DNA from: Actinomycetota bacterium
Lineage (GTDB): Bacteria; Bacillota; Desulfotomaculia; Desulfotomaculales; Desulfocucumaceae
Assembly: GCA_023475565.1 (NCBI GenBank)
Contig: JAMCVT010000049.1
Location: 1-41,403, forward strand
Length of the DNA stretch: 41,403 nucleotides
Direction of reading: 5' to 3'
Of the stretch, positions 11,958 through 33,664 are shown piece by piece. The notes under the pieces were generated by a model. That model saw nothing but the letters and a program-made list of their open reading frames with translations, searched no databases and had not been told where the DNA came from. Every line of letters starts with the position of its first letter. The first letter of the stretch is position 1. Position numbers and translations under genes: made by a program.

Positions 11958-12161
11958 GGAGAAGGCATCAATCGAGCGATATGCCGGAGTCAGTTACTGC
12001 CTTTTAACGAAGGAGCCGTCAAGGATGACGATTTGGCGGTAGGAAGCCGCCAAAAGCCCGAGAGGAGCAGGACGCGACTTTCGAGGGCGGTCGTCAACCT
12101 CGGTGAGGAGTTTAAAGGCAGTTCTGACGCAGGTCTAAATCGCGAGTGCGATGTCTTCTCC
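11958..12161 (+). repeat. Structured RNA-like element, copy 1
   Basis: Nested helices are visible. The outer arms are GGAGAAGGCATC (11958-11969) and GATGTCTTCTCC (12150-12161), with one G-U. Next are ACTGCCTTT (11996-12004) with AAAGGCAGT (12114-12122), and TGACGA (12026-12031) with TCGTCA (12091-12096). Inside are a hairpin TTTGGCGG/CCGCCAAA (12032-12054) with AGGA in its loop and a weaker hairpin around AGCAGGACGC. It aligns in order with the copies at 13020-13215 and 18091-18296, though most paired bases differ. It starts two bases after the pepF stop. No conserved reading frame is present. Confidence 0.62.
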
Positions 12162-12204
12162 GATGCGCCCCAAAGCTTCTATGGTATTTGTTGTCAACTA
12201 TTGA

Positions 12205-12248
12205 TTCACTTTAGCACTTTAAAGCAACGTATACTTTCCTGTATAAAA
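12205..12248 (+). repeat. Short conserved block (copy 1)
   Basis: TTCACTTTAGCACTTTAAAG and the following TATACTTTCCTG recur with few changes at 13389-13433 (TTCGCTTTAGCGCTTTAAAG, then TATAGTTTCCTG). Both blocks lie downstream of a structured-element copy and next to a terminator facing the other way. It may be the 3' part of the same element. Confidence 0.45.
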
Positions 12249-12266
12249 ACCACCGTTTCCGGCGGT
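12241..12266 (-). terminator. Rho-independent terminator of the DUF3887 lipoprotein gene
   Basis: On the minus strand, ACCGCCG-GAAA-CGGTGGT pairs over 7 bp with one G-T pair and a GNRA tetraloop, followed by TTTTTATA. It sits just after the stop of the lipoprotein gene at 12284. Confidence 0.75.
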
Positions 12267-12926: not shown

Positions 12927-13019
12927 CGGGGAGACAGGAGACAGGAGACTGCTTAAAAGTAATACCTCTGGTCGGGAGACAGAATAAGCAGGCATTTCTG
13001 GCAGCAAAAAGACCTCAAA

Positions 13020-13215
13020 GTGACATTCATAGAGGGGGAGGGGTTTTAATCCAGGCGGACGTCCCGGAGGCTGAATACTGGCTCTTAGCGACAGAGCCTT
13101 ACGGACTGCCGAGCTGGCTGCAGGACGCAGCCAGCAGCCGGAATCGACGTCATGGATGCGGCGTTGGAGGCGGTCGGCAGTCCGTTAGGTGACGAGCATA
13201 GAGCCAGTTCCCCTC
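13020..13215 (+). repeat. Structured RNA-like element, copy 2 (within intergenic 12731-13474)
   Basis: Helices are GAGGGGG (13032-13038) with TCCCCTC (13209-13215, one G-U); ACTGGCTCT (13077-13085) with AGAGCCAGT (13200-13208, perfect); and ACGGACTGCCGA (13101-13112) with TCGGCAGTCCGT (13174-13185, perfect). Inside, GCTGGCTGC-AGGAC-GCAGCCAGC (13113-13135) is a perfect 9-bp hairpin with a GGA loop, and a second hairpin around TCATGGATG (13148-13156) also exposes GGA. It shares CCTCAAA.TGACATTCAT at its 5' side with copy 3. The rest of 12731-13474 holds no convincing gene. Confidence 0.65.
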
Positions 13216-13388
13216 ATGGGGACATTCCTGCCCATAAAGAAATACCCAATCTTCAGCAGGTGTGTCCCCTTTCCTTATAGGTCCGGGAGCATTGGATTCA
13301 AACCTCTCCACCGTCCCTATAGCGACCTCAGAGTGACCCCAAAGCTACCCGAATTGATCATAGTATAAATCTTTTTTTCAGACTACCG

Positions 13389-13433
13389 TTCGCTTTAGCG
13401 CTTTAAAGCGTCATATAGTTTCCTGAAGAATAA
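13389..13433 (+). repeat. Short conserved block (copy 2)
   Basis: This is the counterpart of 12205-12248. TTCGCTTTAGCGCTTTAAAG is followed by TATAGTTTCCTG and an A-rich end. CGCTTT and AAAGCG can pair. It lies between structured element copy 2 and a minus-strand terminator, as copy 1 does. Confidence 0.45.
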
Positions 13434-13456
13434 AAAAAGAGGCGTTCAGCCTCTTT
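13431..13456 (-). terminator. Rho-independent terminator
   Basis: On the minus strand, AAAGAGGC-TGAAC-GCCTCTTT is followed by TTTTATT. It lies 18 bases after the stop of the small Cys-rich ORF at 13475 and supports that ORF being a real transcription unit. Confidence 0.75.
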
Positions 13457-14509: not shown

Positions 14510-14959
14510 TCAGCCCTGCATATCTTCATTTATCTTGTCCATCTTCTTTTTAATCTCTGCCGGGGGCCCGGTCTTCCCGCTCTCAATCCGCCTCTCCATT
14601 TTTTGAATCTCGCTGAACAGCTTTTTATCCGTAGTTACATGGACTTCATACTCACTGCCCAGTGCGGACAGCTTTTTATGCACCTCTTCCCTGATTGCTT
14701 TAAGCCGGAACCTGTCCAGCCCGCTGACCTTCACAGCGGCACAAACATCGCTGTTTATAACCACAGCGGTGCTGTCCTGGACACCCCTGACGGTTTTGGC
14801 CTTATTCTTCACCTTTGCGGCCAGTTCCGGGTCAACCTGGATCTGCTGCCGGGCCTGGCTGTCCCGGGCCTGCGGCTTTTTGACCGGCTCCGCTGCCCCG
14901 CAGCCCGCCAGGACGGAAAAAAGCAGCACCAGTATAATAGTTTTAAGCACTGTCCTCAT
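14510..14959 (-). CDS. YhcN/YlaJ-type sporulation lipoprotein
   Basis: The 149-residue lipoprotein has signal peptide and lipobox LAGC (Cys near residue 20). The YhcN/YlaJ-like domain contains VRGVQDSTAVVINSDVCAAV and a helix with AIREEVHKKLSAL. Family members are spore-membrane lipoproteins linked to germination. It is the last gene of the spoVA-2mob-like operon (11 bases after spoVAEb). YhcN/YlaJ lipoproteins are a recurring component of mobile spoVA operons. Confidence 0.82.
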   Translation of the reverse strand: MRTVLKTIILVLLFSVLAGCGAAEPVKKPQARDSQARQQIQVDPELAAKVKNKAKTVRGVQDSTAVVINSDVCAAVKVSGLDRFRLKAIREEVHKKLSALGSEYEVHVTTDKKLFSEIQKMERRIESGKTGPPAEIKKKMDKINEDMQG

Positions 14960-14970
14960 GCTCTACCTCT

Positions 14971-15324
14971 TTATCCCTTTGGTTTGAAAAGCAGCGCCCC
15001 CAGGAAGCCGAAAATAATGGCGGCCGAAATACCGGCGCTGGTCACTTCAAATATTCCTGTTAGTATGCCTACTATCCCTGTTCTTTCAGCCTCGGCCATG
15101 GCGCCGTGCACCAGGGAGTTGCCGAAGCTGGTAATGGGGACGGTGGCGCCGGCCCCGGCAAAATCTATAAGGGGCTCGTACAGCCCCAGGCCGCTTAATA
15201 TGGCCCCGGACACCACCAGTATAACCATGGTGTGGGCAGGGGTGTATTTAAATACATCCATCAGAATCTGTCCTATGACGCATATAAGCCCCCCCACCAA
15301 AAAGGCCCACAGGTAAGCTTCCAT
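14971..15324 (-). CDS. spoVAE: Stage V sporulation protein AE (SpoVAEb)
   Basis: The 117-residue protein has three to four membrane helices and the SpoVAC/AEb family pattern ([20 protein letters not shown] and [19 protein letters not shown]). It is part of the SpoVA channel that moves dipicolinic acid across the spore inner membrane. GGAGTG precedes the ATG. It lies 12 bases after spoVAD. Confidence 0.9.
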
Positions 15325-15336
15325 GCCTTTTCACTC

Positions 15337-16347
15337 CTAACCGCCGTACTCGATAGACACAGCGTGCGCTATACAGGGTATGGTTTCCTTCTGCTGGTAA
15401 GAAAGGGGTGATAAAAGGGCGCCGGTGGCGACAATCAAAACCTTTTTAAGCTCCCCCTTTTTCATCCTGTTCAGTATATGGCCGTAAACCACCGTGGCCG
15501 CACACCCACAGCCGCTTCCCCCGGACAGTACCTCGGGATGTTCCTCTCCGTATATAACCAGTCCGCAGTCGGTAAATAATTCTCCGGGAATCTCCAGGCC
15601 GTGTTTCTTCAATAAGTCTGAGGCTATCCTGAACCCCACCTCCCCCAGGTCGCCGGTGGCGATCAAATCGTAGTCCCGGGGAGATGCCTGCATATCTCTC
15701 AGGTGGGCCGTAATGGTGTCTACTGCGGCAGGAGCCATGGCGCCCCCCATGTTGAAGGGGTCGCTCATGCCCATATCCACCACCCTGCCGATGGTGGCCG
15801 AGGTTACTACCGGGCCGTCACCCCCGGGGGCCAGCAGCGCAGCCCCGGCCCCGGTAACAGTCCACTGGGCTGTAGGAGGCTTCTGGGACCCGTATTCGGT
15901 GGGGTACCGGTACTGTTTTTCCGCGGCGGCGTTATGGCTGGCGGTACCGCATAAAACCCTGTCTCCGTACCCGCTGTTCACTATCAGCGCCCCCAGGGCA
16001 AGGCTCTCCATGGAGGTGGAGCAGGCTCCATACAGCCCCAAAAAGGGAACGGCCAGGGTCCTGGCGGCAAAGCTGCTGGAAATAACCTGGTTCATAAGAT
16101 CGCCACAGAGAAAGAACTGCAAATCCTTCTTCTGTAGCCCGGCCTTTTGCAGGGTTATTTCACAGGCCTCTTCTAGCATTTTTTTCTCTGCCTTCTCGTA
16201 GGTGTCCTGTCCCAGCCACAGGTCCCCATGCAGCAGGTCAAAGTCTTCGGCCAGCGGCCCCCTGGCCTCCTGGGGGCCGCCCACCGTACCGGTTGAAATA
16301 ATGACGGGCTTTGCGGGATATACCCAGGTCTGGTGCCCCTTCAGCAT
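15337..16347 (-). CDS. spoVAD: Stage V sporulation protein AD (SpoVAD)
   Basis: The 336-residue protein has a thiolase/KAS-like fold, with GLYGACSTSMESLALGALIV carrying the thiolase-position cysteine, GVGDLGEVGFR-type turns (TGDLGEVGFR) and SGGSGCGCAATV near the C-terminus. SpoVAD binds dipicolinic acid on the outer face of the spore inner membrane. Length is normal. It begins one base after the spoVAC stop. Confidence 0.92.
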   Translation of the reverse strand: MLKGHQTWVYPAKPVIISTGTVGGPQEARGPLAEDFDLLHGDLWLGQDTYEKAEKKMLEEACEITLQKAGLQKKDLQFFLCGDLMNQVISSSFAARTLAVPFLGLYGACSTSMESLALGALIVNSGYGDRVLCGTASHNAAAEKQYRYPTEYGSQKPPTAQWTVTGAGAALLAPGGDGPVVTSATIGRVVDMGMSDPFNMGGAMAPAAVDTITAHLRDMQASPRDYDLIATGDLGEVGFRIASDLLKKHGLEIPGELFTDCGLVIYGEEHPEVLSGGSGCGCAATVVYGHILNRMKKGELKKVLIVATGALLSPLSYQQKETIPCIAHAVSIEYGG

Positions 16348-16348
16348 G

Positions 16349-16828
16349 CTAGAGTCCCCCCAGCATTGATATAACGGTTTTAATCAGTGCCACCGCAAAG
16401 GCCGAAAAGACCCCGAAAGCAATCACCGAGCCGGCCAGCTTGAACATTTTTCCCCCTACCCCCAGCACAAACCCCTCGGTTCTGTGTTCGATGGCCGCGG
16501 CGGCCACCGAGTTGGCAAAGCCGGTTACCGGCACCGCTGTCCCGGCGCCGGCCCACTGGGCGATGTGGTCGTATACCCCCAGTGCGGTCAGCAGCACCGA
16601 AATAATAATTAAAATGGCTACAGTGGGGTTGCCCACCGTTTTTTCGGTAAAATCAAAGTTCCACAATAGAAAATCCGATATTAGCTGACCTAAGAGGCAG
16701 ATACCCCCACCCACCAGGAATGCCCTTACACTGTTCCTAAAGACAGGTCTCCCCGGCTCTCTCAGTTTGGCAAAGTCATGGTACTCCTGCTGCACTGGAG
16801 TGAGCTTCTTCTTTATCTTGTTGGACAT
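16349..16828 (-). CDS. spoVAC: Stage V sporulation protein AC (SpoVAC)
   Basis: The 159-residue membrane protein has TPVQQEYHDFAKLREPGRP, FLVGGGICLLGQLISDF, and VPVTGFANSVAAAAIEHRTE. SpoVAC forms a mechanosensitive membrane component of the dipicolinate channel. The ATG at 16828 has AGGGTGG 8 bases upstream; GTG codons at 16840 and 16837 lack a site. Confidence 0.92.
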   Translation of the reverse strand: MSNKIKKKLTPVQQEYHDFAKLREPGRPVFRNSVRAFLVGGGICLLGQLISDFLLWNFDFTEKTVGNPTVAILIIISVLLTALGVYDHIAQWAGAGTAVPVTGFANSVAAAAIEHRTEGFVLGVGGKMFKLAGSVIAFGVFSAFAVALIKTVISMLGGL

Positions 16829-16841
16829 ATTGTTCACCACC

Positions 16842-17702
16842 CTATCTTGTCAAAAGCGGCCTGGTTTCTTCTACTATATCAGCAAGCACTCCGGCAGAAC
16901 GGGCATACATTTTTTTTGCCTCCGGGTCCTGGGTGCCCAGTGCGTAAAGCTCACAGTCAGCCTGGCACTTTTTCAGTGTATAGTAGGCCAGTTCCCTGGC
17001 CTTGGGCCTGGGCGCCAGTATGGCGTCGTCAAAAAGGTCCAGATAAAGCTGGCCTGTGGAGTCCACCTGGGCAATAAAAACATTTTCGGGGGCCACCCCC
17101 GCCTTTTCCAGCTCGGTGTGCAGCCACTTCCTGTTCAGCCCCATGGACGCCAGGGGCTCATCCATGATAATGCCGTCCATAATAACAGTTTGGGGAACAC
17201 TGTCCCGGCCTGCCGCAAGATTAATCGTCCTGGGGGTAACCGGCCGGCTGTCCTTTTTCAGAAGCACGCTTATTTCCCCGCTGGGCTCCATAACGGCGAA
17301 TTCAACGTCGGCAAAGCTAAAAACGCTTTTCCTGCGCAGTTCGCTAAGCAGGTCCTCAGGGGTAAGGCGGGATTCCAGCAGGCTGTCCTCCAATATCTTA
17401 CCGTGGTTGATCAGCACCGCCTCCTTTCCCTGCACAATGTCCCTGACCATTTTGTACTTTATGGCCAGGACATATATAAGCGCCGGGAACACTGTCCAGA
17501 CCGCCAGGGTTATAAGACCCCCGGCAGTGCTGCCGGCCATCCCCAGTGAGATGGCGGCGGCCGTAACACCTATAACTATCACCGTCACCAGGTCAAAGAA
17601 GGTCATCCGGGATGTTGTCCTTTTCCCTATCAGCCGCGCCAGCAGGAGGGTGATGGCGAAAAGTCCGGCTGAGCGAAGAAAAATGTTTAACCACTCAGGC
17701 AT
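16842..17702 (-). CDS. DUF421 (YetF-like) membrane protein
   Basis: The 286-residue protein has three N-terminal helices (residues 5-80, with LLLARLIGKRTTSRMTFFDL and VIGVTAAAISLG). A cytoplasmic DUF421 domain follows (EAVLINHGKILEDSLLESRL, LRRKSVFSFADVEFAVME, LLKKDSRPVTP). A C-terminal extension includes PENVFIAQVDSTGQLYLDLF. DUF421 proteins with such extensions accompany DUF1657 and spoVA genes in spore heat-resistance (spoVA-2mob) operons. It is co-directional with spoVAC, 13 bases ahead of it. Confidence 0.85.
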   Translation of the reverse strand: MPEWLNIFLRSAGLFAITLLLARLIGKRTTSRMTFFDLVTVIVIGVTAAAISLGMAGSTAGGLITLAVWTVFPALIYVLAIKYKMVRDIVQGKEAVLINHGKILEDSLLESRLTPEDLLSELRRKSVFSFADVEFAVMEPSGEISVLLKKDSRPVTPRTINLAAGRDSVPQTVIMDGIIMDEPLASMGLNRKWLHTELEKAGVAPENVFIAQVDSTGQLYLDLFDDAILAPRPKARELAYYTLKKCQADCELYALGTQDPEAKKMYARSAGVLADIVEETRPLLTR

Positions 17703-17726
17703 AATGCATATTCTCCCTGCTGTAAG

Positions 17727-17933
17727 CTAAAATCCCTTGTACTGGGGCTCCTCGAATTCCAGAAAGCCCACTCTCTTTTCCAGGTCCCCGATCACCCGGC
17801 CAATTTCCCGGGCGCTGGAGGAAAAGGCCTCCCGGGCCTCATTGTTCTGCTCAATCCCGGCAAAGGTCTCCAGGGTTGACCTGGCCCCTTTAAGGCTGGC
17901 CAGGGTCTGTTTTACCTGGGCACTGACTGTCAT
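17727..17933 (-). CDS. DUF1657 family small protein
   Basis: The 68-residue protein shows the DUF1657 pattern TVSAQVKQTLASLKGARSTL, and ends GFLEFEEPQYKGF. It is helical and probably cytoplasmic or spore-internal, with unknown biochemical role. It is typically the first gene of spoVA-2mob-type operons, as here. The ATG at 17933 has GGGGGTGG about 5 bases upstream; a GTG at 17942 overlaps that site. Confidence 0.85.
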   Translation of the reverse strand: MTVSAQVKQTLASLKGARSTLETFAGIEQNNEAREAFSSSAREIGRVIGDLEKRVGFLEFEEPQYKGF

Positions 17934-18004
17934 TATTACCACCCCCGCATAACCTATTCTGTTACTAAAAATGATTTATATTCAAAAAATACGCAGAGAT
18001 GAAA

Positions 18005-18029
18005 TAAAAAGCCGCCCTTAACAGGCGGC
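18005..18029 (-). terminator. Rho-independent terminator after structured element copy 3
   Basis: On the minus strand, GCCGCC-TGTTAAG-GGCGGC is followed by TTTTTATTTC. It lies downstream of copy 3 in the orientation its G-U pairs demand, so it probably ends that RNA. A near-copy of the hairpin (GCCGCC-TATTAAG-GGTGGC, without a T-tail) occurs at about 18360-18378 on the other side of the element. Confidence 0.75.
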
Positions 18030-18090
18030 ACAGGTTGTTGACAAGTATTATTGATTAAGTGGACAATATGGGCAACTCACGGGCAGGCCT

Positions 18091-18296
18091 GGAATACCAA
18101 CCCCATTGCCAACGGGTGCTCTGTGCTAAACCGGCTTTAAGACTTGAAGGCAACGGACTGCCGACCACCCTCGAATGCCGCATCCATGCGGCTCTCGGGT
18201 TGCCGCCTGCATCCTGCAGGCGGCTCGTCATTCCGTAGCCTTCTACGTCAAAACCCGGTAAAGCCTCCGCAATGTTAGCAACGGGGCTGGTATTCC
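18091..18296 (-). repeat. Structured RNA-like element, copy 3 (in intergenic 17934-18397)
   Basis: The outer arms at 18274-18296 and 18091-18113 pair over all 23 positions if read as minus-strand RNA, with three G-U pairs; plus-strand RNA would have three A-C mismatches. Inside are ACCGG..TTT with AAA.CCGGT, an interrupted helix of GAAGGCTACGGA with TCCGTTGCCTTC, a 9-bp hairpin GCCGCCTGC-AGGAT-GCAGGCGGC, and a 6-bp hairpin GCCGCA-TGGA-TGCGGC. The order matches copies 1 and 2. Accidental frames through it are not preserved between copies. A terminator follows at 18005-18029. Confidence 0.7.
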
Positions 18297-18397
18297 CTGC
18301 CTCGATGAATGTCATTTTTGAGGCTAATTTCCCTAACAGGAGGTTTGTCAGCAGTCTGAGCCACCCTTAATAGGCGGCAGTCCTTCTGTGGCTTTAA

Positions 18398-19120
18398 TTA
18401 GACAGCCCTTCCCGTTCTTATAGCGGTGGCAAACTCCGGCGGCAGGCCCGCGCGCTCTATCTCGGCAGCAGTTTCCTCGTAGCTGTAGGGCACCTCGATT
18501 ATTTCCACTTCCGGCCAGCCGTCACCGGGGCCAATGATCACGTAGGCGGCATTGGGGTTTCCGTGCTTTGGCTTACCGGCGCTGCCGGCATTGATTACAT
18601 ACCCGGCGGCTGTTTTTTTAACAAAGGGAAGGTGAGTGTGGCCGCATACCAGTATACCTGCGCCTCCCTCCCGGATCAGATCGTCCAGGTAGTCCTCCGG
18701 AGTGTCTTCATAAATGTATTCATTCAGCGCCCTGGGGCTTCCGTGCACCAGCAGCAATGCGGTCCCCCCAGGATCGATTTCCATTCTACCCGGCAGATCC
18801 TTAAGCCAGCGCCTGCTTTCCTCCGAGGTGTTTTCCCTGGTCCAGGCGATGGACTTCTCTCCCAGGAGCATGGTCTTTTCATCCTTGTAGTCGCACCCGC
18901 AGACAATCCTGAGGTTTCCTACGGCATCATCGTAATTGCCCATTACGGTGGGGATATTTTCCCGCCTGATGACATCAATTACCTCGTTGGGCCGCGGCCC
19001 GTAGCCCACCAGGTCACCGGCGCAGTAAACCCTAGCGGCCCCCCTGGCCCGGGCATCCTTCAAAACGGCCTCCAGGGCGTGCAGGTTTCCGTGAATATCG
19101 GATATAACAGCTATTTTCAC
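18398..19120 (-). CDS. Metallophosphoesterase, YfcE/MJ0936-like
   Basis: The 240-residue calcineurin-like phosphoesterase shows the metal-binding motifs VISDIHGNLHALEAV, CAGDLVGYGPRPNEVI, VMGNYDDAV, LLVHGSPRA and ILVCGHTHLPFVKK, and ends with INAGSAGKPKHG. It is a soluble two-metal phosphodiesterase or phosphatase; substrate not determinable. The GTG start at 19120 is preceded by GGGGGTGGAG. It is followed by structured element copy 3. Confidence 0.88.
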   Translation of the reverse strand: MKIAVISDIHGNLHALEAVLKDARARGAARVYCAGDLVGYGPRPNEVIDVIRRENIPTVMGNYDDAVGNLRIVCGCDYKDEKTMLLGEKSIAWTRENTSEESRRWLKDLPGRMEIDPGGTALLLVHGSPRALNEYIYEDTPEDYLDDLIREGGAGILVCGHTHLPFVKKTAAGYVINAGSAGKPKHGNPNAAYVIIGPGDGWPEVEIIEVPYSYEETAAEIERAGLPPEFATAIRTGRAV

Positions 19121-29684: not shown

Positions 29685-29707
29685 TATGAAGGATACTAAC
29701 TGAGAAG

Positions 29708-29800
29708 AACCTGTTAAAAGGGAGTAGCTGGCATTACAATGCAGGTGAAGTCAACATACTGGCCTACGGCCTGGCTTCACCGTTGGTAGTTTCACCAATT
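29708..29800 (+). ncRNA. yybP-ykoY manganese riboswitch
   Basis: The conserved core strings are present in order: AAAAGGGAGTAGC (29716-29728), GTCAACATACTGGCCTACGG (near 29749-29768) and GGCTTCACCGTTGG (near 29772-29787). They match the yybP-ykoY aptamer, which binds Mn2+ and switches on Mn exporters. A long terminator hairpin follows at 29803, so control is probably transcriptional, with Mn2+ preventing termination. The regulated gene is a GDT1-family exporter, a standard target. Confidence 0.9.
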
Positions 29801-31996: not shown

Positions 31997-33664
31997 TTAA
32001 TCTACTCTCACGGTCATGGTGTCCCGGGCTATAACCTTTTCATTGTCGTCCAGGTCCACCAGCGTGATTTCCACATTGTAGGTCCCCACCCTGGCCACGT
32101 TGAGGCTGAAGGTGGTGGTGGCGCTGTAATCTTCCGGAAGGGAGAATCCCGATGAAGGCCCGTAGTAGCCCACCACATCGCTCCCGTCCTGGCTCAGCGG
32201 CATGTTTCTCCACACCTGGCCGTCCCTGTACCTGAAAGCAGGGATATAGCTCAGCTTAGCATCTTCCACTCTGAATTTGAAAAGCACACTGTCATATTCC
32301 CTGGCGTTTTCCGGGTTGGCTGCGCTGACGGTAAACTCCTTCTCCACTCCGGCGTCAAGTGTCAGATTCCCGGCTGTAATGCTGGCGTCAGAGTAATCGC
32401 TGTCTACTGTAACCGTCATGGTGTCCCTGGCTATGGTCTGCTCATTATTGTCCAGGTCCACCAGCCTTATTTCCACATTATAGGTTCCGGTCTCAGCCAT
32501 TTTCAGCCTGAGGGCGGTGGTGTCGCTGTAGTCCTCCGGGAAGGAGAACCCTGCTGAGGGGCCGAAGTAGCCCACCACATTACTTCCGCTCCGGGCCAGG
32601 GAGATGTTCCTCCAGGTGTCGCCGTCCTTGTAGCGCAGTACCGAAACATCATTCAGGCCAGCGCCTTCCACAATAAATTTGTATCTTACACTATCATACC
32701 CGGTATTACCCGGCGAGTTGGAGGCGCTGACGGTAAACTCTTTCTCCACCCCGGCTGTGAGTTCAAGATCTTCCGCCGGGAAGGAAACCAGCGCTGAATC
32801 CACGTATACCTTCATGCCGTCCCTGGCCAGCACCTGCTCATGGCTGTCCAGATCCACCAGCCTTATGTTCACGCTGTAGGTGCCCGCCTTATCCATCTTC
32901 AGCCTGAAGTCGGTGGTGGCGCTGTAATCTGCCGGCATGGCGAATCCCGATGAGGGGCCGAAATAGCCGGTGACACTGCCGGAGTCCTGGCTCAGCGGCA
33001 CATCCCTCCAGGTGCTGCCGTCCTTGTACTGGAAGGAATCTATGTCGCTTAAGCTGGTATTGGGTATTGAAAATCTAAACAGCACACTGTTGTAGTCTTT
33101 GCCGCTCTCCGGGTTGGTGGCGCTCACCGTAAAATTTTTCTCCTCGCCAACAGACATGGAAATGTCTTCAGCTATCACCGAAGGCATTGTATTGCTCTGG
33201 GCCGCCCCCAGCAGCTTGCCTACCAGGCCGGGTGACAGAACAATTCTCCCCCTGCCTTTTTTAATGCTGGACACATCTAAAGTGGTACCGTTCACCAGTA
33301 TGGTGTTGTCTTTAAGGTTGACCTCAATATACTTGCCATCCTTTGCAATCCTGACGGTGTCCTCATTAAAGGTAACTGTGGCCCCCAGGCCCATGGTTAT
33401 GGCGTTTATCGGTATCAATATACGCCCTTCCTTGTATACGGGAGCCTTGAAGGAACCGGTGGAAAGCTTTTGATCCTTTTTAGGCCCGCCCTTAAGTTTG
33501 ACATTGCTCTGAGCCCGGACCTCCCACTGCTGCATTAATTTGATTTCCTCTTTTGCCTTGGGGCCTTTCCCCTGGCCATTCTGCATGGCCGACGCCATTG
33601 CGGCGGAACTCATCACCATGGCCGCACAGACAGCCGCCGTGGCAATGACTTTAAACTTGGTCAC
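31997..33664 (-). CDS. Secreted protein: copper-amine-oxidase-like N-terminal domain plus three tandem repeats
   Basis: The 555-residue protein has a signal peptide (cleavage near residue 26), a linker, and a copper-amine-oxidase-like N-terminal domain at about 70-150 (RILIPINAITMGLGATVTFN, IEVNLKDNTILVNGTTLDV). Three repeats of about 128 residues follow (about 165-295, 300-425, 430-555). Each runs from a GVEKEFTVSASNP-like start through YKDGxTWRN, GYFGPSSGF and DYSATT to VDLDxxEQVIARDTMTV. The first domain occurs in many clostridial surface proteins without oxidase activity. The repeats look like beta-sandwich modules but are not assigned to a named family. The GTG at 33664 has GGAGG 7 bases upstream; longer starts are not supported. 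Confidence 0.78.
   Translation of the reverse strand: MTKFKVIATAAVCAAMVMSSAAMASAMQNGQGKGPKAKEEIKLMQQWEVRAQSNVKLKGGPKKDQKLSTGSFKAPVYKEGRILIPINAITMGLGATVTFNEDTVRIAKDGKYIEVNLKDNTILVNGTTLDVSSIKKGRGRIVLSPGLVGKLLGAAQSNTMPSVIAEDISMSVGEEKNFTVSATNPESGKDYNSVLFRFSIPNTSLSDIDSFQYKDGSTWRDVPLSQDSGSVTGYFGPSSGFAMPADYSATTDFRLKMDKAGTYSVNIRLVDLDSHEQVLARDGMKVYVDSALVSFPAEDLELTAGVEKEFTVSASNSPGNTGYDSVRYKFIVEGAGLNDVSVLRYKDGDTWRNISLARSGSNVVGYFGPSAGFSFPEDYSDTTALRLKMAETGTYNVEIRLVDLDNNEQTIARDTMTVTVDSDYSDASITAGNLTLDAGVEKEFTVSAANPENAREYDSVLFKFRVEDAKLSYIPAFRYRDGQVWRNMPLSQDGSDVVGYYGPSSGFSLPEDYSATTTFSLNVARVGTYNVEITLVDLDDNEKVIARDTMTVRVD

Follow-up and report, generated by a model that had tools for sequence, protein, structure and literature searches.

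We propose, with a probability of about 0.8, that copy 3 of the repeated element found in the window (the whole stretch of 41,403 nucleotides analysed here) is a non-autonomous element (MITE) of the IS1182 type, which was moved in trans into the terminator at the end of a gene and carries a TwoAYGGAY RNA as its cargo. An IS1182-family transposase acting in trans would have moved copy 3 into the intrinsic terminator of a metallophosphoesterase gene and, judging from the present-day repeats, the insertion would have taken place precisely at the base of the terminator hairpin, with duplication of the hairpin as a whole. The cargo would consist of a long stem that bears two GGA-looped hairpins at its top and that reads in the sense direction on the minus strand at this locus. 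The features are listed in Table 1.

Table 1. Positions in the window of copy 3, its parts and its surroundings, and of the RNA cores of copies 1 and 2.
Feature	Position	Strand	Basis or remark
Copy 3, whole element, probable MITE (328 bp)	18031..18358	minus	terminal repeats at both ends, flanking hairpin duplicate, related copies alike
5' terminal inverted repeat, CAGACTGCTGACAA	18345..18358	minus	pattern search
3' terminal inverted repeat, CAGGTTGTTGACAA (reverse complement of the sense 3' end)	18031..18044	plus	pattern search
Putative target-site duplication, gene-proximal terminator hairpin	18359..18379	minus	direct repeat, 19/21; no U-tract after it
Putative target-site duplication, distal terminator hairpin	18010..18030	minus	direct repeat, 19/21; followed by U-tract 18001-18009
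Metallophosphoesterase gene (its terminator the putative insertion target)	18398..19120	minus	PF12850, PF00149; 3' end about 19 nt ahead of the hairpin
Outer arm, 5' side (23 nt)	18274..18296	minus	23/23 pairs including 3 G-U
Outer arm, 3' side (23 nt)	18091..18113	minus	partner of 18274..18296
TwoAYGGAY-type RNA core	18117..18270	minus	Rfam match 18139-18250; family model 158.8 bits
Apical hairpin 1	18202..18224	minus	loop GCAGGATGC
Apical hairpin 2	18177..18192	minus	loop GCATGGATGC
Copy 1, RNA core (another subfamily, different flanking ends)	11984..12134	plus	family model 134.4 bits
Copy 2, RNA core (third subfamily)	13064..13222	plus	family model 140.1 bits; RF01731 32.7 bits

TwoAYGGAY (RF01731; Weinberg et al. 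2010, PMC2864571) is a known but uncharacterised folded RNA, and copy 3 shares with it the strand, the two apical hairpins with GGA loops and the multi-branch architecture. At the gathering threshold, the Rfam scan of the window returned the manganese (yybP-ykoY) riboswitch alone (29707-29800, plus strand, just over its gathering score), and TwoAYGGAY surfaced in the permissive mode, in which RF01731 matched copy 3 on the minus strand only, at 39.8 bits (E = 2.6e-5), slightly short of the gathering score (43). The assignment of copy 3 to TwoAYGGAY therefore rests on its homology to copies that do pass, such as its homologues in sister genomes, which reach 48-66 bits. RF01731 matches were obtained in 28 of 120 relatives, in 22 of them above the gathering score, and some genomes have at least 20 copies. 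With a family model that we built from 16 copies, nine copies are detected in the genome of the window and 25 and 26, respectively, in two of its sister genomes. Of 118 copies, 117 have GGA in at least one apical loop and 107 have it in the two; the loops of copy 3 are of the (A)YGGAY type, the second being the one that fits AYGGAY letter for letter. An alignment of 36 sequences of diverse lineages shows two-sided changes at 29 of the 32 pairs, a count that leans towards the model's structure because the sequences were fitted to it, and the covariation score is 0.663, compared with 0.205 for the shuffled and at most 0.106 for the slid controls.

The accessible passages of the published description present TwoAYGGAY as a conserved RNA only, and in the searchable passages of papers there is no description of its mobility, of terminal repeats or of insertion that duplicates a terminator. 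The ends of copy 3 match those of IS1182-family insertion sequences (CAGACTGTCGACAAA-type), and the reversed-pattern control of the terminal-repeat search gave 0 matches in the window's genome. CAGACTG[CA]TGACAA forms the start and TTGTCAACAACCTG the end of copies of the copy-3 type, several of which have the same terminator hairpin on both flanks. In relatives, such copies are dispersed in dozens and are flanked in the same way, and the same ends and flanks are found again in other families of the order. The score for a flanking repeat is at least 16 in 27 of the 36 copies of the terminal-repeat type tested, as compared with 15 or less in 95% of randomly paired flanks. Short elements that have the same ends and no core also exist, such as one of 76 bp (G000:C14:14922-14997) located between two CCGCCCTCCGGGCGG hairpins.

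This arrangement changes the meaning of the terminator downstream of the RNA, which the earlier note had taken as support for selection on RNA. A T-tailed hairpin is indeed present at about 18005-18029, in the same orientation as the element, but it forms half of the 19/21 duplication and elements occur in both orientations. To judge from these repeats, it is duplicated target DNA that did not evolve for the RNA of copy 3. Since no U-tract is left behind the gene-proximal hairpin, transcription reading through from the metallophosphoesterase gene is predicted to cross the element and to stop at the distal copy, and should thus include the element. From the side of the U-tract we suspected a bias in orientation relative to the host gene, and this idea was dropped after counting 36 copies, of which 16 are in sense only, 11 in antisense only, seven in both and two in neither orientation with respect to the terminated gene. 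As there is no such bias, the terminator does not demonstrate transcription, and expression by read-through is not general. A search by eye for consistent promoters inside the element found none. A side observation concerns locus L082 (G002:C33:430545), where the terminator is duplicated around one copy and another CAGATTGTTGACAAA end follows, an arrangement that suggests that one terminator may have been used repeatedly.

The probable source of the mobility was found by searching for the ends of the element, which led to a 1.6-kb insertion sequence in genome G080 with the ends TCAGACTGTCGACAAA...TTTGTCTACAGTCTGA; its single product of 490 aa is an IS1182-family transposase (NF033551, 456 bits at a cut-off of 270; PF13751, PF05598). 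The complete genome G079 contains five copies of a relative of this insertion sequence that is 76% identical, with the ends CAGAGTGTCGACAAA...TTTGTCTTCAGTCTG, and elements in the same genus as G079 end in CAGACTGTAGACAAA...TTTGTCGACACTCTG. All five copies lie between perfect duplicates of whole hairpins (AGCAGAGTTCTGGCAAACTCTGCT, TGGTATACTAAAAGTATACCA, GGAGTGTCGCATACATGCGGCACTCC, TTGCTTGGCCGTAGCCAAGCA and AAACCAGAGGACTTAAACCTCTGGTTT), and the length of the duplications, 21-27 bp, tracks that of the hairpin itself. Copy 3 and the five insertion sequences thus have their target and their duplication habit in common, that is, a terminator or hairpin that becomes duplicated. Copy 3 differs from the insertion sequences in containing no transposase gene and in its size (328 bp versus about 1.6 kb). 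Within the 175-contig assembly of the window's genome we found no intact IS1182 transposase but only a remnant of 31.7 bits; in the window's genus, a protein search with the G080 transposase retrieved no helper and the IS1182 family model gave only weak partial matches. Intact helper transposases are found in other genera only, and hence the helper of copy 3 is deduced from the ends and the habit that it shares with elements of those genera.

It has been reported that IS1272 and TnSha1, which belong to the IS1182 family, target stem-loops, often terminators, with no sequence specificity (PMC5678879, PMC4923244). These elements delete or replace the stem-loop and generate no target duplication, whereas the elements described here duplicate the whole hairpin. 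They would represent a branch of IS1182 in which the hairpin, and no fixed stagger, sets the extent of the target duplication, in contrast to IS1272 with its deletion of the hairpin. QMITE1 of Coxiella, a MITE that yields an sRNA (reviewed in PMC10969869), resembles copy 3 in being short and non-autonomous and in having a small RNA as cargo; it belongs to a different element family, and IS1182 is absent from the text of that review. We also considered that copy 3 might resemble a group IIC intron or be a retrotransposed element, recognising terminators by means of its RNA. Although terminators are targeted and the RNA is structured, this possibility is highly improbable and was dropped: the terminal inverted repeats and the hairpin target-site duplications, the latter not expected of a group IIC intron, are common to the element and to one encoding a DDE transposase, Rfam gives no intron match, and insertions occur in both orientations. 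If the IS1182-type reading is correct, an Rfam family of unknown function becomes a mobile element whose probable transposase can be named.

As the earlier note had concluded, copy 3 has its sense strand on the minus side. The Rfam match lies on this strand, GGA stands in the apical loops when they are read on it, and the family model scores 158.8 bits on the minus and 23.3 bits on the plus strand. The sense RNA is more stable than the antisense RNA in 94 of 97 distinct copies, and the same holds for 36 of 37 lineage representatives. Both strands of the whole 18091-18296 stretch fold strongly, the minus strand better (-133.5 kcal/mol, z = -12.3 against shuffles) than the plus strand (-113.1 kcal/mol, z = -9.4). 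The observations on the outer arms from which the note had started were likewise reproduced: as minus-strand RNA, the arms of copy 3 (18296-18274, GGAATACCAGCCCCGTTGCTAAC; 18113-18091, GTTGGCAATGGGGTTGGTATTCC) form 20 Watson-Crick and three G-U pairs, and the plus strand has A-C at the same three places. The single wobble claimed for each of the other two copies is also present, with one G-U valid in the plus orientation in the arms of copy 1 (11958-11969 with 12150-12161) and one in those of copy 2 (13037-13052 with 13294-13309), which have in addition one T-C mismatch. It should be noted that a copy on another contig (G000:C6:22792-22997) is 96% identical to copy 3 and has identical arms, so that its wobbles do not amount to three independent events; the G-U at arm pair 10 is also present in the copies of a sister species.

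The use of G-U polarity to reveal the strand stood up only in part. Between lineage representatives, changes that keep pairing as G-U outnumber those that break it as A-C by 30:12 (p about 0.008). This count was made on isolated mismatches, with G-U disallowed in the folds so as to avoid the obvious bias. However, the ratio is 18:10 in the core helices (p = 0.18) and close to even (48:44) for recent variants inside genomes. The note had itself proposed to compare wobble orientation across more copies and had named equal frequencies in both orientations as evidence against its claim; this is what the fresh copies show. The wobble polarity is thus real between lineages and absent among recent variants, and it is a weak witness for the strand. 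The strongest strand asymmetry is the excess of A-G over C-T mismatches (132:11), many of which represent one inherited motif and not independent events; this excess fits the published tandem G-A motif of TwoAYGGAY (PMC4333381). Polarity alone cannot separate mutation from selection, and strand-biased mutation could in principle have produced it instead of selection on RNA. This explanation is quite improbable because the recent variants at paired positions are unbiased (29 C>T changes to G-U versus 26 G>A changes to A-C, and 19 A>G versus 18 T>C).

The inference drawn in the earlier note that selection on RNA is favoured over DNA cruciforms could not be established. In the core helices, 292 cells have changed on both sides and 13 on one side, indicating double Watson-Crick replacement, and G-U makes up 1.7% of the paired cells compared with 5.1% in tRNAs of the same genomes (p = 2e-4); tRNAs from the same loci have a G-U to A-C ratio of 28:0, although they were called with ARAGORN, which itself favours paired stems. 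The scarcity of wobble intermediates leaves room for upkeep of the arms at the level of DNA. In its full form, such an explanation would have a palindrome that either is needed for transposition, extruded as a cruciform or folded as a hairpin of single-stranded DNA, or persists because template switching from arm to arm restores it, the RNA being without function; the modest polarity of the core and the preference of the IS1182-type insertion sequence for hairpins would fit it as well. We nevertheless consider it doubtful, given the polarity between lineages, the greater stability of the sense strand in nearly all lineage representatives, the strand-specific loops and A-G mismatches, and the insertion sequence, which has no such core. 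On the preferred reading of an IS1182-type MITE with an RNA cargo, most single copies would drift unconstrained, and selection would act on those lineages that go on transposing.

Most likely, the function of TwoAYGGAY is to present paired GGA hairpins to a protein. Binding of CsrA by TwoAYGGAY was predicted in 2014 (PMC4333381), together with CsrA-binding sRNAs in Clostridia that were unvalidated at the time. CsrA is encoded in the window's genome (G000:C12:16181-16336, E = 1.3e-24), and it is present in 23 of 28 carriers of TwoAYGGAY as compared with 45 of 92 other genomes (Fisher p = 0.002, with kinship ignored), an association that may be phylogenetic in origin. In the multi-copy carrier G067, no CsrA was detected. 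As in the CsrA sponges of the CsrB/RsmZ type, GGA lies in hairpin loops in the TwoAYGGAY copies, and the CAGGA[U/C]G-like motifs of these loops presumably resemble the repeats of CsrB. TwoAYGGAY units differ from CsrB/RsmZ in that they have two sites each, are dispersed and mobile, and bind CsrA only putatively. We therefore put CsrA forward, tentatively, as the leading candidate for the predicted partner of the GGA hairpins.

The same features can be read in another way, namely that the RNA is a host regulatory sRNA, a sponge for CsrA that is selected at each site, with the duplication by transposition being incidental. The strand-specific GGA loops, the strong covariation, the CsrA gene in the genome and the published prediction of binding are all compatible with this, but host selection at each site would hardly be expected to leave pairing-keeping and pairing-breaking changes equally frequent within genomes, dozens of near-identical copies, and persisting core-less copies with the same ends, and we consider it unlikely. 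A broader proposal, which builds on copy 3 being a MITE with an RNA cargo and is more speculative than it, is that TwoAYGGAY is a mobile RNA family for which terminator hairpins serve an IS1182-type transposase as landing pads; as these become duplicated, the host gene would keep its terminator while paired GGA hairpins, possibly binding CsrA, would spread to the 3' ends of genes throughout the genome and rewire a global regulator. If it is true that the hairpins bind CsrA, this would be a way of spreading binding sites of a regulator to the gene ends of Clostridia.

The ends of the copy-1 and copy-2 subfamilies differ from those of copy 3, a point that counts against the MITE reading. Five more copies of the copy-1 type are present in one sister genome. 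The RF01731 match to copy 2 is on the plus strand and, like that of copy 3, below the gathering score. The two subfamilies have a different 3' end in common, CTTTAGCGCTTTAAAGCGTCATATAGTTTCCTG, located beside the A-runs of terminators (12190-12250, 13390-13440 and the flanks of L130/L145), which suggests that a second mobilising system may lie behind them. The core of copy 2 is interrupted by a nested palindromic repeat of 70 bp (CCCCTCATGGGGACATTCCTG...CAGCAGGTGTGTCCCC, 13210-13279), which occupies the homologous position in L133, L134, L008 and L217. It apparently replaces CAGCCGGA in two subfamilies, and its occurrence at the same position apparently reflects recurrent targeting or exchange. 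In several genomes, variable arrays that resemble minisatellites (GGAATCCAGAAGCCAGAATCCAG, GGAGACAGGAGACAG; 12930-12950 and the left flanks of L143-L162) mark the 5' end of elements of the copy-2 type.

Two other regions of the window deserve mention. The block adjoining copy 3 (14510-17942, minus strand) encodes DUF1657, DUF421/YetF with DUF1657, SpoVAC/EB-like, SpoVAD and YhcN/YlaJ proteins, and we take it to resemble the spoVA2mob operon for spore heat resistance of Bacillus. Finally, three direct repeats of about 300 nt, spaced by about 400 nt and 68-72% identical, lie within one large minus-strand ORF at 32001-33151 and are probably a repeated protein domain.
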